A stretch of DNA of 64,000 bases from Rhizobium sp. N324 (GTDB lineage: Bacteria > Pseudomonadota > Alphaproteobacteria > Rhizobiales > Rhizobiaceae): contig NZ_CP013630.1 in assembly GCF_001664485.1 (NCBI RefSeq), positions 189,001-253,000 of the forward strand, written 5' to 3'. A program made the position numbers and the translations under genes. A model generated the notes under the pieces. It was not told the DNA's origin and made no database searches. It worked only from the letters and a program-made list of their open reading frames with translations. Positions 28,570 to 42,067 of this stretch are shown one piece after another. The number at the start of each line of letters is the position of its first letter. The stretch's first letter is position 1.

Positions 28570-28573
<4 letters not shown>

Positions 28574-29088
28574 TCAGGCGCGGAGTGCGTTACGCACTCT
28601 GCCAATTGCACTGTCTCGCTGACGAATGCGGTCTTTCCACCGGTGTAGACGCCCCAATCGCCGCCTGCCTCTACAGCCAGGCGGCGTTTCAGATCGGCAT
28701 AGGCCGTGGCCCTTTCGGGGTGATCCCGAAGGTAGTCTCGAAACAGGATGCGCTCCCGATGGGCGCGGTTACCGGGCTCGCAGAGATAGAGCTTGAACCC
28801 ATAGGCTTCGTGATCTCGGGTGAACGCCCAGCGTTTCTCTCCCCTATCGCCGTGGAAGACAAAATCGGCAGCGCGCAGCATTTCGATCGCCATTGGCAGA
28901 ACGTCGTCGGAGATCGTGACGACATCGAGATCGATCTTCGGCTTGGCCGCCAGGCCGGGCACCGACGTGCTGCCGATATGGTCGATGGACAGCACGAGAT
29001 TGCCGAGCAGGGTGGAGATCTCGGCGCTGATGTCAGCAAAGAGCCGCGGCCAGGAAGGATCGTAGTCGACCACTTTGATGGCGCGCAT
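28570..29088 (-). CDS. GrpB family protein (nucleotidyltransferase-like)
   Basis: A 172-residue GrpB/UPF0157 protein: [19 protein letters not shown], then the nucleotidyltransferase-like core [22 protein letters not shown], and [20 protein letters not shown]. Close relatives are fused to dephospho-CoA kinase in some bacteria, but no activity is firmly established. The ATG at 29088 is chosen because GAGAGGAAGG precedes it; a TTG at 29112 would overlap phnN. The gene lies 20 bases after phnN and is likely cotranscribed at the tail of the phosphonate locus. Its stop overlaps that of ftsK. Confidence 0.85.
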
Positions 29089-29108
29089 GCCCTTCCTCTC
29101 AATTGCGG

Positions 29109-29705
29109 TCAATGCACCTCGGCGAGCAGCCCGTCGAGGATCGTGACTATCTTCTGCTTGGCCTCTTCGAGCGAGCCGCTATTGTCGAGTTCCGCCACGT
29201 CGTAGTCGCCGCGCACCGTCAGCGGCCCGCGGGCAAGTCTGGCCATGATATCCTCATGCGTCTCGCGCCCGCGCGCCTCCAGCCGGCTGGCAAGCACTTC
29301 CGGGCGAGCGGTGACGTTGATCACCTTGAGCCGCGGGAAAGCCGCCTGGAAACGGTGAAGCGCCGAGCGCGAGCCATTGGCGACGACGACATGGCCGCGC
29401 GACAATGCCACCGAGACCTCGGCCGGAATGCCGTATTTCAAGCCGTGCGCCTCCCACCAGACGGCGAAGGAGCCCGACTGCTCCATGGCGGCAAATCCTT
29501 GGAGGGAGACGGAAAGATGGTCTTCGCCGCCGGCGTCGCGGTGGCGGGTGATGACGCGGCGGGTGAAATGAACCTCGGCACGGCCGGCGAAATGCCGGGC
29601 GGCAAGGTTCATCAGCGTGTCCTTGCCGGCGCCGCTCGGCCCGACGACGACGACCATGATGCCGCGCTCGGCTCCGGCTCCTGGATGGGGTTCGTACGGG
29701 CTCAT
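29109..29705 (-). CDS. phnN: Ribose 1,5-bisphosphate phosphokinase
   Basis: A 198-residue P-loop kinase that makes PRPP from ribose 1,5-bisphosphate, the last step of ribose recovery in the C-P lyase pathway. The Walker A reads VVVVGPSGAGKDTLM (about 17-31), followed by guanylate-kinase-like HFTRRVITRHRDAGGEDH and ALSRGHVVVANGSRSAL. Its start overlaps the phnM stop by 4 bases, indicating translational coupling. Confidence 0.93.
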   Translation of the reverse strand: MSPYEPHPGAGAERGIMVVVVGPSGAGKDTLMNLAARHFAGRAEVHFTRRVITRHRDAGGEDHLSVSLQGFAAMEQSGSFAVWWEAHGLKYGIPAEVSVALSRGHVVVANGSRSALHRFQAAFPRLKVINVTARPEVLASRLEARGRETHEDIMARLARGPLTVRGDYDVAELDNSGSLEEAKQKIVTILDGLLAEVH

Positions 29706-30841
29706 GCGACACGGCGTCCTTGGCGCCAGACGGAGCGTGTCACCGGCACGCCATGCGAACGGTGGACGCGGACGAGATCGGCGCGCAGCCCGGTGGCGAT
29801 CCGGCCGCGGTCGTTGAGACTGACGGTGCGCGCCGGCGTCGACGTCACCATGGCGATCGCCTTCGGCAGGGTGATGCTCTCGACTTCATCGGCGAGGATG
29901 AAGGGCGCATGCAGCAGGCTGAGCGGCACGTAATCGGAAGACAGCACGTCGAGCACGCCCATCTCGGCGAGGTCGCGGGCGGCGATATTGCCGGAGTGGG
30001 ATTTGCCGCGCACGATGTTCGGCGCGCCCATCAGCACGCTCATGCCATGTTCGTGCGAGGCGCGGGCGGCATCGAAGCTGGTCGGGAATTCGGCAAGCCG
30101 CACGCCGTTGTCGATCGCCTCGTCGACATGGGAGAGCGTCGCGTCGTCATGGCTTGCGACGGTGATGCCGCGCTCGGCGCAGACCTTGGCGATGGCATTG
30201 CGATGCGGTGTCGAATTGCGCGCCGATTCCGCCTGGCGCTTGGCGACGAAGCGCGCGAAGACCTCGTCGCTTAAGCCCCGCTTCTTCTGATAATAGAAGA
30301 TATATTGATCCATCGTCTGGAACTGCCGCTGGCCGGGGGCATGATCCATCAGCGAGACCAGGCGCACATGCCGGTCGTTTTCGAAATCGGCGAAATGTTC
30401 GAGCACATTGTCGGCCGAGACCTCGCAGCGCAGGTGGAGGAGATGCTCGGCGCGCAGCCGGCCTTCCTTCTCCGCCGACTGGATGGCATCGGCCATCTCG
30501 CGCATCTCGCCATGTTCGAAGCCGCCGTCCTCATCAGCCCCCATGCGCAGGCAGTCGAACACCGTGGTGATGCCCGAGGTGACGATCTGGGCGTCATGCG
30601 CCTGAACCGCGGCCGTCTTGTTCCAGCGGATGCCGGGACGCGGCTGATAATGACCTTCGAGATGGTCGGTATGCAGCTCGACGAGGCCGGGAATGATGTA
30701 ATCGCCTTCGAAATCTTCGCCGGCTACCGAGTTGCCTTCGGAAATGTCGGCGATCTTGCCGTCGCGAATGACAATCGAGCCCGCGAGGATGTCATCCTCG
30801 AGAACGATGCGGGCGTTGGAAAACACGGTCTCTTTGCTCAT
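29702..30841 (-). CDS. phnM: Alpha-D-ribose 1-methylphosphonate 5-triphosphate diphosphatase
   Basis: A 379-residue amidohydrolase that removes pyrophosphate from the phosphonate ribosyl triphosphate before C-P bond cleavage. Metal-ligand motifs are LVELHTDHLEGHYQPRPG (about 54-71), LVSLMDHAPGQRQF, ITVASHDDATLSHVDEA, and VLSSDYVPLSLLHAP. The start at 30841 is chosen by family length; the frame remains open for another 130 bases without a ribosome site. It is followed by phnN. Confidence 0.94.
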   Translation of the reverse strand: MSKETVFSNARIVLEDDILAGSIVIRDGKIADISEGNSVAGEDFEGDYIIPGLVELHTDHLEGHYQPRPGIRWNKTAAVQAHDAQIVTSGITTVFDCLRMGADEDGGFEHGEMREMADAIQSAEKEGRLRAEHLLHLRCEVSADNVLEHFADFENDRHVRLVSLMDHAPGQRQFQTMDQYIFYYQKKRGLSDEVFARFVAKRQAESARNSTPHRNAIAKVCAERGITVASHDDATLSHVDEAIDNGVRLAEFPTSFDAARASHEHGMSVLMGAPNIVRGKSHSGNIAARDLAEMGVLDVLSSDYVPLSLLHAPFILADEVESITLPKAIAMVTSTPARTVSLNDRGRIATGLRADLVRVHRSHGVPVTRSVWRQGRRVA

Positions 30842-30854
30842 CTCGTCGGGTCTT

Positions 30855-31550
30855 TCAGCTTTTGGCGCCGGAAAGCGGCAGCCAGGAATGAACTTTGAAC
30901 GGGGCGCCGCGCGTTTCCTCGGTGAAGACGGCGAGGCCGGAAATCGCAAGCGGCCGGTTGGTGAAAACGGCAAAACGCTCGGTCAGAATGGTTTTCATCA
31001 CCGCGGCGCGTGGCTCGGGCACCTGGCCGGTGAGCGTCATGTGGAAGCCGAAATCCTCCATCACATAGGGATAACCCCAGCGCTGCAGATTGGCGCGCTG
31101 GCTGTCGCTGAGCTTCTCCGGGTTGCGCCGCGCCATATCGGCTTCGGACAACGCTGCGCGAAACGGTTCGAAGGACCTTACCACCTTCGCGGCGAAATCC
31201 TGAAGCGGTTGATGAACAGAACCCGGAACAAGGGCAAAAAAACGGCCGAGCTGGCCAAGCACCAGTTCGGGAATCTCGAAGGCTTCAGTGCGCGCGGCAA
31301 ACTCCTCGACGACGGCCATCAGATCCCTCTCGGTGACCGAAGCGGCGAGCGAAAACGGCGCCTTGATCGTCGCGTGAAAGCCGTAGCGGCGCGGATCGGC
31401 GGTCAGGTCGAACTGCTCTGCCGCACCGAGTTGCTCATGCTCCGGTGCAGGATAGGTCTCGTCACTGAATGCATCGCGGCCGAGCCAGCGCGAGGCCGCG
31501 CCGGTCAGGGGATCATCCTTCGGCGGCGAGAAATAGAGAGCGTAGCGCAA
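30855..31550 (-). CDS. DUF1045 protein, 2H-phosphoesterase-like, in phosphonate locus
   Basis: A 231-residue protein of the DUF1045 family, usually found in phn operons. It shows two H-x-T-x motifs, GFHATIKAPF (His-59, Thr-61) and GFHMTLTGQV (His-170, Thr-172), the hallmark of 2H phosphoesterases that open cyclic phosphates. With no phnP in this locus, it may open the 5-phosphoribosyl 1,2-cyclic phosphate left by PhnJ; that is inference. The TTG at 31550 (MRYALYFSPP) is the likely start, with AGGA before it; no in-frame ATG exists. Confidence 0.82.
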   Translation of the reverse strand: MRYALYFSPPKDDPLTGAASRWLGRDAFSDETYPAPEHEQLGAAEQFDLTADPRRYGFHATIKAPFSLAASVTERDLMAVVEEFAARTEAFEIPELVLGQLGRFFALVPGSVHQPLQDFAAKVVRSFEPFRAALSEADMARRNPEKLSDSQRANLQRWGYPYVMEDFGFHMTLTGQVPEPRAAVMKTILTERFAVFTNRPLAISGLAVFTEETRGAPFKVHSWLPLSGAKS

Positions 31551-31693
31551 GGCTTTTATCCTGGGGATCGTCGAAATGGGGAGCGCAATGTGCAGTGATT
31601 TGGCGGCGAACCGCAAGCAGGTTCCCGGCTAAAAGATTTCCGTGACAGAATGATGATGGCGGCAGCGCCGCCACAGCCTTTCCGGCCGATGGC

Positions 31694-33037
31694 TCAGTGG
31701 GTTTTCGTGCCCATCAGCCGGTGGCGCAGCGCGTTCGAGGCGGCGTCGAAAAGGAAGACGACGAGCAGGATCAGGATGACCATGTAGGCGACGTTTTCCC
31801 AGTTGGCGTTGGTGCGCATCGCCTCCCAGAGTTTGAGACCGATGCCGCCGGCGCCGACGGCGCCGATAATCGTTGCACCACGCACGTTCGATTCCCATTG
31901 GTAGAGCGTCTGGCTGACGATGACGGGAACGATCTGCGGCATAATGCCGTAACGATGGACCAGCACGGTTTGAGCGCCGGTTGATTGGATGCCTTCCCGT
32001 GGCTTGTTGTCGATATTTTCCAGCCCTTCGGAATAGAGCTTGCCGAGCGTGCCGGTCTCGGTGAGGAAGATCGCGCCGCTGCCGGCAAGCGGGCCGGGGC
32101 CGAGGGCGCGGGTCAGGAACAGCGCCCAGATCAGCATGTCGACCGACCGCAGGAAATCGAAGAAACGCTTGAGGATCTGATTGAGGAGCCGGTTCGGCGT
32201 GATGTTGCGTGCCGCCAGGAAGGCGAGCGGGAAAGCGGCGAGCGACCCCAGCAGCGTTCCGAGGAATGCCATGACGATCGTCTGGAAAAGTTTGGTCCAG
32301 ACGTCGCCATGCTGCCATTCGCTGTTGTTCCAGATGTCGTCGAAGGCGAGCGACAGGTTGGACTGGTCGGGCTTGATGCGCGGCCCCGAGACGATGAGGC
32401 TGACGACCTCGCCGATCGGCTTGTCGAAGAAGGACGATTGCGTGTCGAAGACGAAATTCGCCCAGCCGATGAAACGCTTGCGGATTTTCACCCGGTCGAC
32501 GGAAATGCTGACATTGCCGGCAAAGCCGAGATCGGCAAGCACATTGTCGTCATAGACGGTCATCCAGCCGGGCACTGGCCCGACCACCTTAGGCGCACCG
32601 CTCGTGACCTCGACGGGGACGCTGATGCCATGCGCGGTGACGATCGTCTGGCTCTTCGAGACCGTGACGGTGCGGCTGGCGCCGCTGATCGAAACGGTGA
32701 TGCTGTCATCGGGATTGTCGACGAGCCAGTCGGGATGGGGATTGTCGCCGAGCGGCGAGAAGCGCGGATACCGCACTTCGATCGAGCCGTCGTCCTTAAT
32801 GCGGAATTCCGGCTGAACGTCGTAGCTTACCCATTGGCTGAGATAGATGCCGACGCGCTCCCAATGGGCTTCGGCGAACAGCTTGGGCAGGTCGAAAAAC
32901 CAGACGGCATAGAGGCTGTAGAGCAGCGTCGCGATCAGGATCATCAGCCCGCCGAAACGCTGGCGGAACGAGCGGTGGAAATATTCCGGATAGTGCGCTT
33001 CGATCTCGTGCATCCGGTTGGCGTCGATCACCGTCAT
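31694..33037 (-). CDS. phnE: Phosphonate ABC transporter permease, long form
   Basis: A 447-residue permease, well above the usual 260-320. The first helix (about 28-52) is followed by a polar, beta-rich stretch of about 180 residues (55-235), probably periplasmic. The permease core comes next, with the EAA-type loop QTLYQWESNVRGATIIGAVGAGGIG near residue 395. It pairs with the shorter PhnE encoded just upstream to form a heterodimeric channel. The 7-base gap between them indicates one operon. Confidence 0.9.
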   Translation of the reverse strand: MTVIDANRMHEIEAHYPEYFHRSFRQRFGGLMILIATLLYSLYAVWFFDLPKLFAEAHWERVGIYLSQWVSYDVQPEFRIKDDGSIEVRYPRFSPLGDNPHPDWLVDNPDDSITVSISGASRTVTVSKSQTIVTAHGISVPVEVTSGAPKVVGPVPGWMTVYDDNVLADLGFAGNVSISVDRVKIRKRFIGWANFVFDTQSSFFDKPIGEVVSLIVSGPRIKPDQSNLSLAFDDIWNNSEWQHGDVWTKLFQTIVMAFLGTLLGSLAAFPLAFLAARNITPNRLLNQILKRFFDFLRSVDMLIWALFLTRALGPGPLAGSGAIFLTETGTLGKLYSEGLENIDNKPREGIQSTGAQTVLVHRYGIMPQIVPVIVSQTLYQWESNVRGATIIGAVGAGGIGLKLWEAMRTNANWENVAYMVILILLVVFLFDAASNALRHRLMGTKTH

Positions 33038-33044
33038 GGCGGCC

Positions 33045-34004
33045 TCAATGTTGCAGGAGGAAGGCGTGCTCGCCGACGAGGCGGCGACGCAGCCATGCTG
33101 AGAACTGGTCGACGGCGACGATCGTCACGAACAGCAGCAGAACGAGCGCCATCGTCTTGGCGCCGAAGCCGCGCGAGATCGACAGCTTCAATTCTTCGCC
33201 GATGCCGCCGCCGCCGACGGCGCCGATGATGGTCGAGGCGCGCACGTTGATCTCGAGCCGCAGCAGCGCATAGGAGGTGAAGTTCGGCAGCACCTGCGGC
33301 AGGGCGGCGAAGCGCACGCGCTCGCACCAGTTGGCGCCGACCGCTTTCATGCCCTCATGCGGCTTCATGTCGATATTCTCGGCCACCTCGTAGAAAAGTT
33401 TGCCGAGCGCGCCGATCGTGTGCAGGGTGATGGCGATGATGGCGGCGACCGGCCCGATCGACAGGATCGCCGAAAACAGGCCGGCAATGACGATCTCGGG
33501 GAAGGCGCGCAAAAATTCCATCAGGCGTTTGGTGAAGATGCGCAGCGGCCATGAACGCGTCAGGTTGCGCGCGGCAAAGAAGCTCAAGGGAACGGCAAAG
33601 ACGAAGGCGACGATCGTCGAGATCAGCGCCACGTTGATCGTCACGATCATCAGCTCGAAATATTCGGGAATGTAGAAGGCGCCTGAGATATAGACGCGGC
33701 CCTTGTCGAAATTGAATTCCTCCCCGCCCTTGTCGTTCACGCTCGCTATGTCGAACAGCGCGCGCCAGACGTCGTTCCAATCCTTAGGGATGAGCCAGCT
33801 CAGGAAATCGAAAAGATGCGGCAGGCGGTCGAAGAAATGGCCGGCATTGCTCTCGTCGGCGAAGCGGACGGAGCTTGCGAAAGCCGCAATCAGAATAACC
33901 AGGCCGAGGATGGTGTAGAAGCGGCGCCTGGCGACCATCCGCTCCCAGGCGGTGCGGATCTCCCTGGTGCTCTGCATCTGCGGCTGTGTATCGGCAACAG
34001 TCAT
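33045..34004 (-). CDS. phnE: Phosphonate ABC transporter permease
   Basis: A 319-residue permease with about six helices and the conserved cytoplasmic loop RLEINVRASTIIGAVGGGGIG. The cytoplasmic N-terminus (1-28) is polar and the first helix starts near residue 29. It follows phnD after 64 bases that contain a GC-rich hairpin, likely a processing or attenuation point that sets binding-protein levels above those of the channel. Confidence 0.93.
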   Translation of the reverse strand: MTVADTQPQMQSTREIRTAWERMVARRRFYTILGLVILIAAFASSVRFADESNAGHFFDRLPHLFDFLSWLIPKDWNDVWRALFDIASVNDKGGEEFNFDKGRVYISGAFYIPEYFELMIVTINVALISTIVAFVFAVPLSFFAARNLTRSWPLRIFTKRLMEFLRAFPEIVIAGLFSAILSIGPVAAIIAITLHTIGALGKLFYEVAENIDMKPHEGMKAVGANWCERVRFAALPQVLPNFTSYALLRLEINVRASTIIGAVGGGGIGEELKLSISRGFGAKTMALVLLLFVTIVAVDQFSAWLRRRLVGEHAFLLQH

Positions 34005-34068: not shown

Positions 34069-34974
34069 TCAGCCGCCGATGGCAGCTTTGCGGACTTCGA
34101 CGACGGTGTTGTAGAACTCGTGCTTAACGGGGGCATAGCCCTTGTAGTCGCCGCCTTCGATCGCGGCGAAGCACTTGTGATCCTTTTCCGGCAGCGCCGT
34201 GAAGAAGGCTGCAAGCTTCGTCTGCCAATCCTCACCGAGAGCGTTGCGAACGACGAGCGGGCCGTTCGGGATCAGCGGCGACCGCCAGACTTCAACCAGC
34301 TTGTTCGGATCGACGGCGCCCTTGTCGACTTCCTTGCGGAACGTGCCCGAGGTGTAGCCGTCCTTGAAATCGCCGATGCCCGACGAGTCGTCGACGGCGA
34401 CGTCGACCTTTCCGTCATAAGCGGCGAGAAGGTTGTTCTCGTGGCCGCCATTGAACTGCGTGGAAGCGAAGAACTTGTCGTTCGGCATGCCCGTGTCCTT
34501 CGGGATCTGCGTCAGCGGAACGAGATAACCCGAGGTGGAGTCCGGATCGGCGTAGCCGAGCTTCTTGCCCTTGGCGTCCTGGATGGTCTTGATACCGGAT
34601 GATTTCAGGGCGAGGCCGATCGAGTGGTAGCCGGTCGAACCATCCTTCTGCTGCGTCGTGAGGATCGGCGTGACAGCCTTCGGATCCTTGATGTAGACGG
34701 CTGCGTAGCCCGAAGCGCCGAGTTCGGCGAAGTCGAGCGTGCCGCCGAGCAGGCCCTGGATGACGCCGTCATAATCGGCGGCCGGGAACAGCGAGACCTT
34801 CTCGAAGCCGAATTCCTGCTTCAGGTGGTCGGCGAGGCAGGCATAATTGCGCAGGCGGTCGGTTTCGTTTTCGCCGCCGAGGATGCCGATGCGGAATTCC
34901 TTGAGATCTGCAGCATTGGCGGCGCCGGCGAGCGCGAAGAGCGCCGTTGCCGCAAAGAGTGCTTTCTTCAACAT
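34069..34974 (-). CDS. phnD: Phosphonate ABC transporter substrate-binding protein
   Basis: A 301-residue periplasmic binding protein. The signal peptide (MLKKALFAATALFALAGAANA) ends at about 21. The mature part reads KEFRIGILGGENETDRLRN, and the phosphonate-pocket region YHSIGLALKSSGI leads into GKKLGYADPDSTSGYLVP, where Ser/Thr side chains bind the phosphonate oxygens in the family. It follows phnC by 87 bases. Confidence 0.95.
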   Translation of the reverse strand: MLKKALFAATALFALAGAANAADLKEFRIGILGGENETDRLRNYACLADHLKQEFGFEKVSLFPAADYDGVIQGLLGGTLDFAELGASGYAAVYIKDPKAVTPILTTQQKDGSTGYHSIGLALKSSGIKTIQDAKGKKLGYADPDSTSGYLVPLTQIPKDTGMPNDKFFASTQFNGGHENNLLAAYDGKVDVAVDDSSGIGDFKDGYTSGTFRKEVDKGAVDPNKLVEVWRSPLIPNGPLVVRNALGEDWQTKLAAFFTALPEKDHKCFAAIEGGDYKGYAPVKHEFYNTVVEVRKAAIGG

Positions 34975-35061: not shown

Positions 35062-35910
35062 TCAGAGGCCGGCCAGCGCCAGCGGTTGGACGCCGGCGGG
35101 TTGATTGTCTGCCCGCTCGGGAGCGATGTTGATCGACGTCGAGGTCATCGTTTCGTCGATGCCGGCGCCGTCCTTGTCTGTCCCGTAGATCGCCTTCACC
35201 GCCTCGGCGGTCAGCTCCGACGGCTTGCCGTCGAAGACGACGCGGCCGCCGGCCATGCCGACGATGCGCTCACAATAGTTGCGGGCGGTATCGAGCGTGT
35301 GGAGGTTAGTGATGACGGTGATGCCCTCGCGCTCGTTGATGTCGCGCAGCGCATCCATGACGATCTTGGCGTTCAGCGGATCGAGCGAGGCGATCGGCTC
35401 GTCGGCGAGCACCATCTTCGGGCTCTGCATCAGCGCCCGCGCAATCGCCACGCGCTGCTGCTGGCCACCGGAAAGCGTGCCGGCCGGCTGTAGTGCCGTC
35501 TGTTCGATGCCGAGGCGTTCGAGGGCTGCGATGGCGTATACACGTTCTTCGCGGGTGAAGATGTTGAGCAGGCTGAGAAGCGTCGAGCGGTGGTTGAGGC
35601 GGCCGAGCATGACATTGGTGAGAACATCGAGGCGCGGCACCAGGTTGAACTGCTGGAAGATCATTGCGCAGTCGCGTTGCCAGTTGCGCAGCGCCCCGCC
35701 GCGAAGCCCGGAAACCTCGACGCCGGCGAAATGAATGGTGCCGGAGCTCGGCTCCTGCAGCCGGTTGATCATCCGCAAGAGCGTCGACTTGCCGGCGCCG
35801 GAACGGCCGATGATGCCGACCATCTGGCCCTGCGGGATGGCGAGCGTGATGGAATCGACGGCGAGCTTTTTTCCGAAACGGCGTGTGACATTCTTGAGCT
35901 CGAACATCAT
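35062..35910 (-). CDS. phnC: Phosphonate ABC transporter ATP-binding protein
   Basis: A 282-residue ATPase. Walker A is GRSGAGKST (about 36-44), the signature [15 protein letters not shown], Walker [14 protein letters not shown], and the switch His appears in [17 protein letters not shown]-terminal tail of about 35 residues beyond the core is specific to this group. It heads the phnCDEE unit, separated by 115 bases from the acyltransferase gene upstream, so a second promoter is possible here. Confidence 0.95.
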
Positions 35911-36025: not shown

Positions 36026-36643
36026 TTAGCCACCATATCTCGCTAGAAAATCTTCCGCGCTCAGGTTGCGAAAATCCTGCAACGCCTGGCGCAGAAGGTC
36101 ATGGTCCCAGTCCCACCAGGCAAGCCTGTCCATGCGCTCGCCGACCGCTTTCGAAAAGCGCTCGCGGATCAATTTAGCCGGCACCCCGCCGACGATCGAG
36201 TAGGCCGCGACATTCTTCGAGACGACCGCGCCGGCGCCGATCACCGCGCCGTTGCCGACGCTGATGCCCGGCAGGAGCGTCGCCCCATGGCCGATCCAGA
36301 CGTCGTGGCCGATCGTCACCCGGTTTGCGCGCCGCCAGGCGAAGAAGTCTTCCTCCATGTCGCCGTCCGGCCAGTAGTCGGCGGCGCGATAGGTGAAATG
36401 ATGCAGTGTCGCGCGCCAGGTCGGATGGTTGGTGGCGTTGATGCGCACGGCGGCGGCAATATTGACGAACTTGCCGATCGTCGCGCACCAGATGGAGCCG
36501 TCCTGCATGATGTAGGAATAGTCGCCGAAGGTGGCTTCGCTGATGCGGCAGCGTTCGGAAACCTCCGTAAAGCGCCCGAAGCTGGACTCGCTGACCGAGG
36601 CTGTCTCGTGGATAGAGGGTTCAATGCCCAGCTTGCGGCTCAT
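36026..36643 (-). CDS. Hexapeptide-repeat acyltransferase of the phosphonate locus
   Basis: A 205-residue left-handed beta-helix acyltransferase (xenobiotic/chloramphenicol acetyltransferase-like). Its hexapeptide turns include FGRFTEVSERCRISEA, IGKFVNIAAAVRI, VTIGHDVWIGHGATLLPG and GNGAVIGAGAVVSKNV; the catalytic His is probably in INATNHPTW. A subfamily of these genes is restricted to phn clusters and may acetylate an aminoalkylphosphonate, as PhnO does, though the substrate is unproven. The ATG overlaps the phnL stop by 4 bases. Confidence 0.88.
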   Translation of the reverse strand: MSRKLGIEPSIHETASVSESSFGRFTEVSERCRISEATFGDYSYIMQDGSIWCATIGKFVNIAAAVRINATNHPTWRATLHHFTYRAADYWPDGDMEEDFFAWRRANRVTIGHDVWIGHGATLLPGISVGNGAVIGAGAVVSKNVAAYSIVGGVPAKLIRERFSKAVGERMDRLAWWDWDHDLLRQALQDFRNLSAEDFLARYGG

Positions 36644-37347
36644 GCGGCGATCTTTCCGGGAGAGAAGAGCTGGACGTCGAGAATGCGGTCGGCGACCGCC
36701 TCGCGGACTTCTTCGTCGTGGAAGATGCCGAGAAGGGCGACGCCCGCCTGCTTCTTCTCCTCGATCATGCCGACGACGACGGCACGGTTCCTGGCGTCGA
36801 GCGAGGCGGTGGGTTCGTCGAGGAGCAGGATTCTGTGCTCGGTGATGAAGCCACGGGCGATGTTGACGCGTTGCTGTTCGCCGCCGGAGAAGGTGGCGGG
36901 CGGGAGTTGCCAGAGCGCTTCCGGCAGGTTGAGCCGGGCAAGCAGGGCGCCGGCCTTCTCCCGTGCCGCGACGGCGTCTTCGCCGCGCGCCACCAGCGGT
37001 TCGGCGACCACGTCGATTGCCGCCACGCGCGGCACGGTGCGCAGGAACTGGCTGACGTAACCGAGCGTATGGCGCCGGACGTGGAGCACGGTGCGCGGGT
37101 CGGCGGCGGCGAGGTCGACGATGCGCCCGTCGTGGCGGATGAGGATCTGGCCGGTATCGACGGCGTAATTGCCGTAGATCATCTTCAGCAGCGAACTCTT
37201 GCCGACGCCCGATGGGCCGCCGAGCACGACGCATTCGCCTGAGGCGACCGAGAAGGCGACATTGGAAACGACGGGCAGCCGGATGCCGTCGCGCAGATGC
37301 ATGGTGAAGCTCTTCGAGACTTCGGAAACGACGAGGGGCGTTGGCAT
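36640..37347 (-). CDS. phnL: C-P lyase subunit PhnL (ABC-type ATPase)
   Basis: A 235-residue ABC ATPase needed with PhnGHI to make the ribosyl-phosphonate triphosphate. Walker A reads VLGGPSGVGKSSLLK (about 43-57), the signature FSGGEQQRVNIARGF, Walker B ILLLDEPTASLD, and the switch His lies in LLGIFHDEEVR. The ATG at 37347 is preferred over a GTG at 37371 because GGAAAGAAGA precedes it. It follows phnK by about 30 bases. Confidence 0.93.
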   Translation of the reverse strand: MPTPLVVSEVSKSFTMHLRDGIRLPVVSNVAFSVASGECVVLGGPSGVGKSSLLKMIYGNYAVDTGQILIRHDGRIVDLAAADPRTVLHVRRHTLGYVSQFLRTVPRVAAIDVVAEPLVARGEDAVAAREKAGALLARLNLPEALWQLPPATFSGGEQQRVNIARGFITEHRILLLDEPTASLDARNRAVVVGMIEEKKQAGVALLGIFHDEEVREAVADRILDVQLFSPGKIAA

Positions 37348-37378
37348 GATGTCTTCTTTCCTGGTTTGCACCGATTGC

Positions 37379-38155
37379 TCAGACCTGCAGGATCGAGGAG
37401 ACCAGCAGCTGCGTGTAGGGTTCGCGCGGATCGTCGAGCACCCGGTCGGTAAGCCCGTGTTCGATGACGTAGCCGTCCTTCATCACCATCATCCGGTGCG
37501 AGAGCAGGCGGGCGACGGCGAGATCGTGGGTGACGACGATCGCCGAGAGGCCGAGATCGTTGACGAGGCCGCGCACCAGATCGAGCAGGCGCGCCTGCAC
37601 CGAGACGTCGAGGCCGCCTGTGGGTTCGTCCATGAAGACAAGGCGCGGGCCGGTGACGAGGTTGCGGGCGATCTGCAGGCGCTGGCGCATGCCGCCGGAA
37701 AAGGCGCGCGGCTGGTCGTCGATGCGGTCGGCGTCGATCTCGACCCGTTCCAGCCAGTCGATCGCGGAGGCGCGGATCTTGCCATAATGCCGGTCGCCGA
37801 TTGCCATCAGCCTTTCGCCGACATTGGCGCCGGCCGACACCGCCATGCGCAGGCCGTCGGCCGGGTTCTGATGCACGAAGCCCCAATCGGTGCGCATCAG
37901 GAAGCGCCGCTCGGCCTCGTTCATCCGGTAGAGATCGCGGTAGCTGCCGTCGCGCATGTGGTATTCGACGCTGCCGGTGCTTGGCAGCAGCCGGGTGGAG
38001 AGGCAGTTCAGCAGCGTCGTCTTGCCGGAACCGGATTCGCCGACGATGGCCAGCACTTCGCCCGGCCAGAGATCGAAGGAAACGTCGCGGCAGCCGATGC
38101 GGTTGCCGTAGAATTTCGAAACGTCGTGGACTTTGAGAAGCGGGATATCGCTCAT
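37379..38155 (-). CDS. phnK: C-P lyase complex protein PhnK (ABC-type ATPase)
   Basis: A 258-residue ABC ATPase that docks on the PhnGHIJ core. Visible are [15 protein letters not shown] (about 38-52), a PhnK-typical segment MRTDWGFVHQNPADGLRM, the signature FSGGMRQRLQIARNL, and FMDEPTGGLDVSVQ. Its ATG overlaps the phnJ stop by 4 bases. Confidence 0.94.
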   Translation of the reverse strand: MSDIPLLKVHDVSKFYGNRIGCRDVSFDLWPGEVLAIVGESGSGKTTLLNCLSTRLLPSTGSVEYHMRDGSYRDLYRMNEAERRFLMRTDWGFVHQNPADGLRMAVSAGANVGERLMAIGDRHYGKIRASAIDWLERVEIDADRIDDQPRAFSGGMRQRLQIARNLVTGPRLVFMDEPTGGLDVSVQARLLDLVRGLVNDLGLSAIVVTHDLAVARLLSHRMMVMKDGYVIEHGLTDRVLDDPREPYTQLLVSSILQV

Positions 38156-39027
38156 TCTGCAGCCTCCCGGGCCAGCATTTCGCCGGCATGCCCCTGCGCG
38201 CGGCGGTCTTCGCAATGATCGGTGTCGGAGCAGACGAACATGCGCCCGCCCTTGTCGTCGAGAACCACTTCGTCGAGATAGACATCTTCAGCGCCGCAAA
38301 GGGCGCAGGGCTTGTCGAAGCGCTGGATGTCGAAGGGATAGTCCTCGAAATCCAGGCTGACGACGTCGGTATAGGGCGGAACCGCATAGATGCGCTTCTC
38401 GCGGCCGGCGCCGAAGAGCTGCAGCGCCTCCGACATGTGCATCTTCGGATTGTCGAATTTCGGCGTCGGCGACGGGTCCATCACGTAGCGGCCGTGGACC
38501 TTCACCGGATAGGCGTAGGTCCTGGAGATCCGGCCGTTATGGGCGATATCCTCGTAGAGCTTCACATGCATGAGGCCGTATTCCTCGAGCGCATGCATCT
38601 TGCGGGTCTCGGTCTCGCGCGGCTCAAGGAAGCGCAGCGGCTCGGGGATCGGCACCTGGTAGACGAGTACCTGACCGGCCTTCAGTTTTTCCTCGGGGAT
38701 GCGGTGGCGCGTCTGGATGATCGTCGCCTCGCCGGTATGCGTCGTCACCGCGACATTGGCGACCTTCTGGAAGAAAGCGCGGATGGAAACGGCATTGGTC
38801 GTGTCGTCGGCGCCCTGGTCGATGACCTTCAGCACGTCGTCGGGCCCGATGATCGAGGCCGTCACCTGCACGCCGCCGGTGCCCCAGCCGTAGGGCATCG
38901 GCATTTCGCGCGAGGCGAAAGGCACCTGATAGCCGGGAATGGCGATCGCCTTCAGGATGGCGCGGCGGATCATCCGCTTGGTCTGTTCGTCGAGATAGGC
39001 GAAGTTGTAGCTGGCCAGATCGCTCAT
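38152..39027 (-). CDS. phnJ: Alpha-D-ribose 1-methylphosphonate 5-phosphate C-P lyase
   Basis: A 291-residue radical-SAM enzyme that splits the carbon-phosphorus bond, giving an alkane and a cyclic ribose phosphate. The iron-sulfur cysteines C241, C244 and C266 and the catalytic C272 are all present with the spacing known from E. coli PhnJ (CALC, then VCSDTDHC). The glycyl-radical Gly-32 also falls at the same number (IPGYQ). It overlaps both neighbours by 4 bases. Confidence 0.97.
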   Translation of the reverse strand: MSDLASYNFAYLDEQTKRMIRRAILKAIAIPGYQVPFASREMPMPYGWGTGGVQVTASIIGPDDVLKVIDQGADDTTNAVSIRAFFQKVANVAVTTHTGEATIIQTRHRIPEEKLKAGQVLVYQVPIPEPLRFLEPRETETRKMHALEEYGLMHVKLYEDIAHNGRISRTYAYPVKVHGRYVMDPSPTPKFDNPKMHMSEALQLFGAGREKRIYAVPPYTDVVSLDFEDYPFDIQRFDKPCALCGAEDVYLDEVVLDDKGGRMFVCSDTDHCEDRRAQGHAGEMLAREAAE

Positions 39028-40130
39028 TCGGCGGCTTCCTTCATGTCTTCGCCGGCGTTGCGGGCGGCTTCGAATTCGCGGCGCATGCGGCGGACGAGAT
39101 CGAGTTCGGCCTGGAAGTCCACATAATGCGGAAGTTTCAGGTGTTCGACGAAGCCGGTCGCCTGGACATTGTCGGAATGGGAGATGACGAATTCCTCGTC
39201 CTGGGCCGGCGCAGTGATATCCTCGCCGAGCTCTTCAGCCCGCAATGCGCGATCGACCAGCGACATCGCCATCGCCTTGCGCTCGCTCTGGCCGAAAACC
39301 AGGCCGTAGCCGCGGGTGAATTGCGGCGGCGCCTTGGCCGACCCCTTGAACTGGTTGACCATCTGGCATTCGGTGACCTGGATCGTGCCGAGCGAGACGG
39401 CAAAGCCGAGTTCCGGCACGTCGAATTCCACCTCGACCTCGCCGATGCGGATTTCGCCGGTGAAGGGGTGGTTACGGCCGTAGCCGCGCTGGGTGGAATA
39501 ACCGAGCGCCAGCAGGAATCCTTCGTCGCCGCGGGCGAGCGCCTGCAGGCGCAGATCGCGGGTCATAGGGAATTCCATCGGCTCGCGGGTCAGGTCGCCG
39601 ATCTGGTGATCTTCGGGCATGTCGCCGTCAGCCTCGATCAGGCCTTCCTCGCCGAGGATCTCGGAGACGCGCATGACGCGGCCGGCCTCGGCGGCGCGCT
39701 GGGCGGGCGCCTCGACCGCCTCGTCTGAAAGCAGGGAGGGATCGAGCAGACGGTGCGTATAGTCGAAGGTAGGCCCGAGAAGCTGGCCGCCCGGCAGATC
39801 CTTGTAGGTCGCCGAGATGCGTCGTTCGATCGTCATATCAGCCGTGTCGAGCGGCCTGGAATAGCCGAAACGCGGCAGCGTCGTGCGGTAGGCGCGCAGA
39901 AGGAAGATCGCCTCGATCATGTCGCCTCGCGACTGGCGCACCGCGAGGGCGGCGAGGGTGCGGTCGAAAAGCGAGGCTTCGGCCATTACCCGGTCGACGG
40001 CGAGGGCCAGCTGCGCCACGATCTGGTCGATGCCGATCGCCGGCAGCGAACGGTCGCCGCGGCGGCGGTCGGCCAGCAGGCGGTGGGCATTGGCGATGGC
40101 GGCCTCGCCACCTTTGACGGCAACATACAT
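39024..40130 (-). CDS. phnI: C-P lyase core protein PhnI
   Basis: A 368-residue subunit of the PhnGHIJ core that displaces adenine from ATP with phosphonate. The family N-terminus MYVAVKGGEAAIANAHRLL is intact, and the sequence contains LGYSTQRGYGRNHPFTGEIR and the C-terminal DNVQATGFVEHLKLPHYVDF. Length is normal. It follows phnH after 4 bases and is coupled to phnJ. Confidence 0.96.
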   Translation of the reverse strand: MYVAVKGGEAAIANAHRLLADRRRGDRSLPAIGIDQIVAQLALAVDRVMAEASLFDRTLAALAVRQSRGDMIEAIFLLRAYRTTLPRFGYSRPLDTADMTIERRISATYKDLPGGQLLGPTFDYTHRLLDPSLLSDEAVEAPAQRAAEAGRVMRVSEILGEEGLIEADGDMPEDHQIGDLTREPMEFPMTRDLRLQALARGDEGFLLALGYSTQRGYGRNHPFTGEIRIGEVEVEFDVPELGFAVSLGTIQVTECQMVNQFKGSAKAPPQFTRGYGLVFGQSERKAMAMSLVDRALRAEELGEDITAPAQDEEFVISHSDNVQATGFVEHLKLPHYVDFQAELDLVRRMRREFEAARNAGEDMKEAAE

Positions 40131-40134
40131 GAGC

Positions 40135-40743
40135 TCAGATCTCCGTTGCTGTGATCTTGGTGGTGCGCGGCAGGCAGAGAAAACGCCCGCCCGATGTCAG
40201 CACGATGTCGATGCCGCGCGGGAAGAGCGCGCGGTTCTCGGTCCAGAGCCGCAGGAAAGTCTCCGGCAGGCCGACAGGCGCAATTTCCGTCACACTCTGA
40301 ATACCGGGACCCATCAGCGCCAGCCTGCGCCCACCTTCGAGTTCGGAAAGTTCGATCACGAGCGTCGTCGAACGGTCGGGATATTCCTGCGTGCCTGAGG
40401 CGAAGAGGCTGAAGGGACAAAGCGCGGTGCCCGCTTCCGTGAAGGCGAAACGCGCCTCGGCCTTCTCCGTGGTCAGCGGCGCGCCGGTGTGGAAACCGAG
40501 CCACTCCGGCACGGCCGATTTCGCCAACCCCTGGGAAAGCCAGACCGGCGTGTCGTGGTCGCAAAGTGTAAGAGCGATCGCGCCCGCGGCAACGCCGAGC
40601 GGCAGAGGCGGCGCAGCCTCGGGCTGGACGGTCTGGATCGTGCCGGGGCGGGCCATGCCGTCCATCAGCATTTTGAAAACGCTCTGGGCGTGGAAGACCG
40701 GGTCGGCAAAACCGCCGGTGAGAGCTTCTGTCTTCAGGCCCAT
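40135..40743 (-). CDS. phnH: C-P lyase core protein PhnH
   Basis: A 202-residue structural subunit of the C-P lyase core with a PLP-transferase-like fold but no cofactor site. Typical are VFKMLMDGMARPGTIQTV near the start, LTLCDHDTPVWL, GTQEYPDRSTTLVIEL, and PRTTKITATEI at the end. Its ATG shares one base with the phnG stop (TGATG), so translation is coupled. Confidence 0.95.
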   Translation of the reverse strand: MGLKTEALTGGFADPVFHAQSVFKMLMDGMARPGTIQTVQPEAAPPLPLGVAAGAIALTLCDHDTPVWLSQGLAKSAVPEWLGFHTGAPLTTEKAEARFAFTEAGTALCPFSLFASGTQEYPDRSTTLVIELSELEGGRRLALMGPGIQSVTEIAPVGLPETFLRLWTENRALFPRGIDIVLTSGGRFLCLPRTTKITATEI

Positions 40744-41219
40744 CAGTTGTCTCCCCTGACCATGGTGAAGAAGTCGACGCGGGTCGCCGCCGTCTCCTCC
40801 GCCTTGCGGCGTTCGGCAGCGGCGATCCGCTCAGCGATCGGTAAAAGCAGCGCCCGTTCGACGAAATCCTTGGTCGCCTCCTCCTGCCAGAGTGCGTCGA
40901 AGATCGCCGCAAGCCGGGCCTTCTCACGGTCGGTGCCGAGCGCCTGGGCATGTCCGACAGAGCCGGAGTCGAGCCGGACCGTGGCCCGGGTCACCGTCAC
41001 TTCGCCGAGGTTGAAGGGGGCGCCGCCGCCGCCGATGCGGCCGCGCACCATCACCAACCCGGTCTGCGGCCCGCGCACCGGATGCGTTGCGGGCTTTTCC
41101 GGCAAGGCATCCCAGACTGCCTGGAGTTCGCTGCGTTCCGCGCGCGCCAGCAGATCGGCGGCGCGTTTGCGCCCGGATGCCGTCTGTGACGCAGCGTCTG
41201 TCCTGTCCGCCGATATCAT
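40743..41219 (-). CDS. phnG: C-P lyase core protein PhnG
   Basis: A 158-residue first gene of the C-P lyase operon. The family pattern RKRAADLLARAERSEL, GLVMVRGRIGGGGAPFNLGE, TVTRATVRL and GHAQALGTDREKA is clear. The ATG at 41219 has AGAGGAAG seven bases upstream; a GTG two codons earlier is the alternative. Control is by the Pho box and PhnF-type palindrome directly upstream. Confidence 0.94.
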   Translation of the reverse strand: MISADRTDAASQTASGRKRAADLLARAERSELQAVWDALPEKPATHPVRGPQTGLVMVRGRIGGGGAPFNLGEVTVTRATVRLDSGSVGHAQALGTDREKARLAAIFDALWQEEATKDFVERALLLPIAERIAAAERRKAEETAATRVDFFTMVRGDN

Positions 41220-41238
41220 CGCCACTTCCTCTTAAATA

Positions 41239-41329: not shown

Positions 41330-42067
41330 ATGGCGGGATTGAAGCAGGTGCAAAGGCAGACCGGCGTGGCGCTCTGGCGCCAGATTGCCGACCGGATTCG
41401 TGAGGCGATCGGCAATGGAGCCTATGACGAAACCGGAATGGTGCCGCCGGAAACGGTCCTGGCGCTGCAATTCGGCGTCAACCGGCACACGGTGCGCAGC
41501 GCCCTGGCGGCCTTGGCGCAGGAGGGGATCGTCCGCGCGGTACAAGGTCGCGGCACGCTGATCGAGCGCAAGGAGCGGCTGAATTTCCCGATCACCCGGC
41601 GCACCCGCTTCACGTCAGGCATCGGCGACCAGGCGCGCGAGATGCGCAGCCTACTGCTCGATGAGGTGCAGGAGGAAGCAGGCGCCGAGGTCGCCCGCTG
41701 GCTGGGTCTGAAGCAGGGAGAGCAGGTGATCCGGCTGGAAACATTGCGTCAGGCGGACAAGCGGCCGGTGTCAAAAGCGACGAGCTGGTTTCCCGCCCAG
41801 CGCTTCGCCGGGATTGGTGAAGCCTATCGCAAGCACGAGTCGATCACCAAGGCCTTTGCCGATCTTGGCCTGCCGGACTATGTCCGTGCGACGACCGAAG
41901 TGACGGCCGCCCATGCGAATACGGCCGATCTGGCCGATCTGGAACTGACGCCCGGCGCGATCCTGCTGATCGCCAAGGCGATGAACACCGATCTTGACGG
42001 TGTGCCGGTGCAATATTCGATCAGCCGCTTTGCGGCCGACCGAGTGCAGTTCACGATTGAGAACTGA
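41330..42067 (+). CDS. phnF: GntR/HutC-family regulator PhnF
   Basis: A 245-residue regulator. The N-terminal winged helix covers 8-75 (ALWRQIADRIREAI, NRHTVRSALAALAQEGIV, QGRGTLIE), and a UTRA/chorismate-lyase-like ligand domain follows (about 95-240), ending PVQYSISRFAADRVQFTIEN. It is divergent from phnG across about 110 bases that hold the Pho box and the palindrome. It probably represses the C-P lyase genes and senses a phosphonate or a pathway intermediate. Confidence 0.92.
   Translation: MAGLKQVQRQTGVALWRQIADRIREAIGNGAYDETGMVPPETVLALQFGVNRHTVRSALAALAQEGIVRAVQGRGTLIERKERLNFPITRRTRFTSGIGDQAREMRSLLLDEVQEEAGAEVARWLGLKQGEQVIRLETLRQADKRPVSKATSWFPAQRFAGIGEAYRKHESITKAFADLGLPDYVRATTEVTAAHANTADLADLELTPGAILLIAKAMNTDLDGVPVQYSISRFAADRVQFTIEN

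Follow-up and report, generated by a model that had tools for sequence, protein, structure and literature searches.

Which enzyme opens the cyclic ribose phosphate of the carbon-phosphorus (C-P) lyase pathway when the locus that encodes the pathway carries no phnP? The question is raised by a 64,000-nucleotide stretch of Rhizobium sp. N324 (contig NZ_CP013630.1, positions 189,001 to 253,000; hereafter the window), in which a gene of the DUF1045 family, also called rcsF (a name shared with an unrelated E. coli lipoprotein), lies at positions 30,855 to 31,550 of the reverse strand. A preliminary description of this DNA, made from the letters and translations alone, proposed that the DUF1045 protein replaces PhnP. 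The analysis reported here leads to the same answer: the gene very probably encodes a 2H-fold cyclic phosphodiesterase that carries out PhnP's step, a reading supported by its fold, its catalytic residues, gene order, the absence of phnP from the whole genome and the non-overlap of the two proteins in 80 genomes.

In profile searches the 231-residue protein scored 283.9 bits against TIGR03223 (cut-off 248.95) and 199.3 bits against PF06299, DUF1045 (cut-off 24.3); TIGR03223 was the only NCBIfam family to match, even at an expectation value (E) of 10, and the PhnP family (TIGR03307) was not among its matches. With 96% identity to named Rhizobium proteins, it is an ordinary orthologue. A motif scan returned H59-A-T and H170-M-T as the sole H-x-T/S matches in the protein, and this pair, characteristic of the 2H phosphoesterase superfamily, is kept across the family, which agrees with the motifs that the preliminary description had assigned to His59 and His170. 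A single-sequence search of solved structures gave nothing significant (only EthR, at E 0.011 or worse), and a profile search brought up, amid chance matches, a pair of 2H proteins with E values of 0.18 and 1; because no significant relative emerged from either, fold comparison was needed. The AlphaFold2 model (predicted local distance difference test score, pLDDT, 96.9) has the bilobal 2H phosphoesterase fold, and the closest characterised structures work on nucleotide substrates. E. coli LigT, described as hydrolysing 2',3'-cyclic nucleotides and binding transfer RNA, and B. subtilis YjcG are proteins of about 170 residues, whereas DUF1045 is longer and has conserved residues of its own, R131, R142 and Y160. 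One further known system compared with the protein showed about 11% identity, and its substrate has adenosine diphosphate, not phosphate, at C5.

PhnP itself belongs to the metallo-beta-lactamase family; the reaction proposed for DUF1045 is the one that PhnP performs, and phnP likewise stands next to phnN, but no sequence relation between the two was found. The preliminary description had called phnP missing from the locus and had suggested a genome search. The locus does lack it, and the search, once run, found none elsewhere: the sole TIGR03307 match in the genome is a fragment of 23.4 bits (cut-off 272.25), an E. coli control passed, the DUF1045 locus was not matched, and no PhnP-like protein appeared at E 1e-10. 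Profile searches placed the phnG-M core, phnN and a transporter of a C-P lyase operon all within the window, and the gene does sit beside phnM and phnN, as had been stated (Table 1).

For this particular protein we infer the replacement of PhnP, and we infer its substrate, the direction of ring opening and the roles of single residues, as follows. PhnJ leaves 5-phosphoribosyl 1,2-cyclic phosphate (PRcP), whose cyclic phosphate would be bound by the two H-x-T motifs. If the mechanism resembles that of LigT, water would be activated by H170 and the leaving 2-oxygen protonated by H59, with R142 and Y160 likely contacting the substrate. The ring-opening product would be ribose 1,5-bisphosphate, to be converted to 5-phosphoribosyl 1-pyrophosphate (PRPP) by the neighbouring PhnN.

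The proposal as such is not new, having been made in PMC3840354, PMC10574752 and PMC8235418. A phnP-less, rcsF-bearing marine fosmid from Rhodobacteraceae allowed E. coli lacking phnHIJKLMNOP to grow on methylphosphonate (PMC3840354); its authors considered RcsF a likely substitute for PhnP, with Huang 2005 cited as the source on clusters without phnP, and this published in vivo evidence for PRcP opening is at the level of the cluster only. Among 54 operons, PhnP was reported in 27 and rcsF in 16 without PhnP, and a role on PRcP was suggested (PMC10574752). DUF1045 has been called a putative phosphoribosyl cyclic phosphodiesterase of uncertain function (PMC8235418), and the analogy with PhnP is repeated in PMC5649143 and PMC6981132; the papers found to mention DUF1045 concern, in the relevant passages, phosphonates or phosphate stress. 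The RcsF/DUF1045 proteins of fosmid B3_TF_MPn_2 and of the S. meliloti and Aminobacter phn loci are of the same family, with the same adjacency to phnM and phnN and the same absence of phnP, and no essential difference separates the window gene from them. Added here are the whole-genome and 80-genome checks, a contrast of residues, and a clade of apparent pseudoenzymes in a urate operon.

Catalytic residues and genomic distribution of DUF1045

Conservation was evaluated in sets gathered without a motif filter. Nine residues (R2, Y56, H59, T61, K63, R131, R142, Y160, H170) never vary in the 28 survey sequences (set A1 minus its urate-operon copy), the 124 database relatives (set A2) or the 30 phn copies from the genus, and residue 172 is threonine in 27, 120 and 30 of these, respectively, and serine in the remainder; the motifs have thus not arisen by chance. 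Eighty named Rhizobiales loci, the top-ranking ones of at least 592, were picked with a pattern containing Y56, H59, T61 and K63. By their neighbours, 73 are phn loci, one is phn plus urate, four are urate and two are other; phnM is among the neighbours of DUF1045 in 74 of the 80, and the order DUF1045-phnM-phnN occurs in 69. In the 73 phn-linked loci R131, R142, Y160 and H170 are invariant and residue 172 is threonine in 71 and serine in two. The 73 of 73 conservation of Y56, H59, T61 and K63 in these loci was not used, the search pattern itself containing those residues.

Across 396 Pseudomonadota genomes, phnJ was found over cut-off in 108, and 80 of these were searched for PhnP and for DUF1045, with 21 other Rhizobiaceae and seven same-genus duplicates set aside. 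PhnP (at E 1e-25; 26 of 26 over cut-off) occurred in 26 and DUF1045 (at E 0.001; 28 of 52 over cut-off, the remainder at 197-248 bits) in 52, with both in none and neither in two. DUF1045 is thus present in 52 of the 54 PhnP-less genomes and in none of the 26 PhnP-bearing ones, as for a functional analogue, although these genomes are not phylogenetically independent. All 47 alphaproteobacterial members of the set carry DUF1045, and the 33 others divide into 26 with PhnP, five with DUF1045, none with both and two with neither (Fisher p = 5e-19 for exclusivity in the 80 genomes, 9e-5 in the 33). In the five, DUF1045 adjoins phnN; in a phnP-bearing genome of the same family (G473), phnP adjoins phnN. 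A sample of 143 Alphaproteobacteria contained phnJ in 26, DUF1045 in 33 (E 0.001; 21 over cut-off, with two weak cases, G021 at 62 bits and G093 at 141 bits) and PhnP over cut-off in none, and DUF1045 was present in 25 of the 26 phnJ-bearing genomes. If the proposed replacement is true, a 2H enzyme, not PhnP, completes phosphonate breakdown in 52 of 80 phnJ-bearing Pseudomonadota and in 25 of 26 phnJ-bearing Alphaproteobacteria, and gene surveys that count phnP would therefore miss these genomes.

Points against replacement, and rival explanations

Several findings weigh against a simple replacement of PhnP. DUF1045 also occurs in eight of 117 phnJ-less Alphaproteobacteria, and a strict rule that DUF1045 means C-P lyase was rejected on this account. 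Aligned sequences from phnJ-less genomes, some of them among the 28 survey sequences, keep the motif residues as well, and these residues therefore mark an active enzyme, not C-P lyase as such. In two phnJ-bearing genomes (loci L045 and L046) DUF1045 has no phn gene within the surrounding 19 kb; the neighbours of the orphan DUF1045 genes that were scanned had no common theme. PhnP-like proteins below cut-off (E 1e-10) are present in 24 of 26 phnJ-bearing and 76 of 117 phnJ-less Alphaproteobacteria (100 of 143 overall). On a tree of 59 PhnJ rows, taken from 58 of the 80 genomes and from G119, the state switches between PhnP and DUF1045 just twice, which ties the exclusivity to lineage, and only three independent pairs lie on supported branches, a number with which the independent-pairs test cannot reach significance; for these two reasons exclusivity was given less statistical weight. 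The phnP-bearing G473 has a distant PhnJ, hence it does not represent a swap within one operon lineage. Three genomes (G480, G483 and G119) bear phnJ with neither PhnP nor DUF1045 over cut-off; another route, or dispensability of the step, therefore exists. Finally, no enzyme assay of DUF1045 or RcsF was found in the titles and abstract openings of a literature whose subscription papers lay mostly outside coverage. The co-occurrence pattern supports replacement, but without many independent events.

The genomes lacking both proteins point to a possible alternative route, and it could be supposed that here, too, an unrelated enzyme acts on PRcP, such as a cyclic phosphate dihydrolase of the PHP family (PhnPP-like) or a PhnP-like metallo-beta-lactamase, with DUF1045 in an accessory role. 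The Rhizobium genome does hold four PHP matches besides the PhnP-profile fragment. However, three of the four lie in open frames of 1164-1189 residues, which by size appear DnaE-like, none of the four is near the phn locus, and the 2H catalytic residues are invariant among phn copies, all of which makes such an enzyme improbable. That same invariance bears on the suggestion that DUF1045 serves the C-P lyase complex without catalysis, as a partner or regulator: every phn copy of the genus and every database relative retains T61 and the two histidines, which would not be expected if catalysis were unneeded, and we consider such a role very improbable. A catalytic 2H enzyme in PhnP's place remains the preferred reading.

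Some of the surveyed loci merit separate description. In G119, an alphaproteobacterium of 1.6 Mb that carries phnG-M, the gene directly after phnM (L048:13665-14567) encodes a xylose-isomerase-like TIM barrel (PF01261), possibly a third solution. G480 and G483 (loci L194 and L195) have phnG-N, with PhnP and DUF1045 both absent, and all 11 other tested members of their family have PhnP; recent loss of PhnP is likely, since G330, of the same genus as G483, has it. In two genomes without phnJ (L035, G028; L036, G122) DUF1045 adjoins phnM, as what is left of a C-P lyase since lost or with a separate PhnM-DUF1045 function. Five genomes (G015, G162, G261, G338 and G449) have an additional phnJ-like gene that is divergent, at about 379-397 bits versus 450-500 for the main copies.

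DUF1045 copies in the urate operon

The genome of Rhizobium sp. N324 has two DUF1045 genes, and each of the 60 genomes of the genus contains at least two matches (in G185, two of the three are fragments). The second gene has degenerate motifs and sits in a urate/allantoin operon with hiuH, allA, uraD and puuE; the gene order of such operons is thiO-like - DUF1045 - puuE - uraD - allA - hiuH. Twenty-one of the additional copies carried by the 60 genomes were analysed, 20 of them fetched and one the genome's own, and all 21 lie in a urate/allantoin operon; thiO-like, puuE and uraD are adjacent in all 20 fetched copies, with allA in 19 and hiuH in 16 (within 8.5 kb). T61, R142, Y160 and T172 are kept in none of the 21, H59 in 17 and H170 in 15, and R2, Y56, K63, R131 and G159 in all 21. 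R142 and Y160 decay alongside the catalytic residues and are therefore probable active-site residues in the phn copies. Four urate-operon copies from named Rhizobiales have T61 (pattern-selected) and R142 in all four, T172 in three and Y160 in two.

The urate copies are under purifying selection: the median ratio of nonsynonymous to synonymous substitution rates (dN/dS) is 0.137 for urate copies, 0.194 for phn copies and 0.057 for puuE, taken over pairs with dS of 0.1-1.5 (175 of 210, 412 of 435 and 189 of 190 pairs, respectively). In a DUF1045 tree made by a quick method, for which the phn rows of the Rhizobiales set were thinned to every second one (38, including the window's own), 25 urate copies form one clade (Shimodaira-Hasegawa-like approximate likelihood ratio test, SH-aLRT, 98) nested inside the phn copies. 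Beside this clade (support 84) branches the DUF1045 of an uncultured member of the Rhizobiaceae (L112, CANMVS010000005.1), whose phn cluster ends DUF1045-phnM-phnN and is followed directly by puuE-uraD-allA-hiuH; it looks like the juxtaposition that enabled capture by the urate operon.

It is likely, then, that the urate/allantoin operon captured a copy of the C-P lyase 2H enzyme, which turned into a conserved pseudoenzyme. The simplest reading is that catalysis was then lost and a non-hydrolytic role retained, and the 2H fold may now serve ureide breakdown through binding or regulation. This clade of apparent pseudoenzymes is a new observation here; a literature search for "phosphonate metabolism protein" with PuuE and allantoinase gave nothing relevant among the matches listed. 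Judged by sequence, the sister clade would be a traceable case of an enzyme turned into a conserved, apparently non-catalytic protein of another pathway. For the phn enzyme, where the proposal is old but seems never to have been assayed, a ready-made test is offered by the residues that do not vary and by the sister clade in which they have decayed.

Layout and upstream region of the phn locus

Table 1. Features of the phn locus, in window coordinates, and the second DUF1045 gene of the same genome.
Feature	Position	Strand	Remarks
phnN, ribose 1,5-bisphosphokinase (TIGR02322)	29109..29705	-	4-nt overlap with phnM
phnM (TIGR02318 / NF011983)	29702..30841	-	ATG at 30841, 13 nt past DUF1045 stop codon
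DUF1045/TIGR03223 ("rcsF") 2H-fold protein	30855..31550	-	231 residues, from a TTG start at 31550 to the stop at 30855; probably a phosphoribosyl 1,2-cyclic phosphodiesterase
PHO-box-like sequence, tentative	31642..31659	-	3 mismatches to a rhizobial consensus
phnE2 permease	31694..33037	-	upstream of DUF1045
phnE1 permease	33045..34004	-
phnD substrate-binding protein	34069..34974	-
phnC ATPase	35062..35910	-
Hexapeptide-repeat transferase TIGR03308 (phn_thr-fam)	36026..36640	-	start approximate, the match being to residues 199-400 of open reading frame 36026-37234
phnL	36640..37371	-
phnK	37379..38215	-	long open reading frame, true start internal
phnJ	38152..39027	-	PF06007, 495 bits
phnI	39024..40130	-	PF05861, 549 bits
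phnH	40135..40743	-
phnG	40743..41225	-
phnF regulator	41330..42067	+	divergent
Second DUF1045 gene	L004:8475-9175; C1:3433495-3434172	-	degenerate motifs HGV, HMP

DUF1045, phnM and phnN may have a promoter of their own, because the 143-nt gap between phnE2 and DUF1045 (31551-31693) holds a PHO-box-like sequence, 91 nt upstream of the DUF1045 start, that is also found in many relatives. An upstream match (at most 4 mismatches, within 160 nt) is present in 37 of 73 rows versus 3.2% of shuffles, where the rows are the window and 72 relatives, related and hence not independent, and the shuffles keep base composition only. Only this upstream region was suggestive; scanned over the whole window, PHO-box matches are at chance (2 versus 2.79 expected), and a promoter and terminator scan gave fewer sites than in shuffles. 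A table of the Phaeobacter phosphate-stress proteome includes a "Putative C-P lyase DUF1045" protein (PMC10132767). At the other end of the gene group, phnN is followed by a gene for a GrpB-family protein (PF04229, 143.9 bits) at 28570-29112 on the reverse strand; of the 80 named loci from Rhizobiales, 11 have such a gene in that place.
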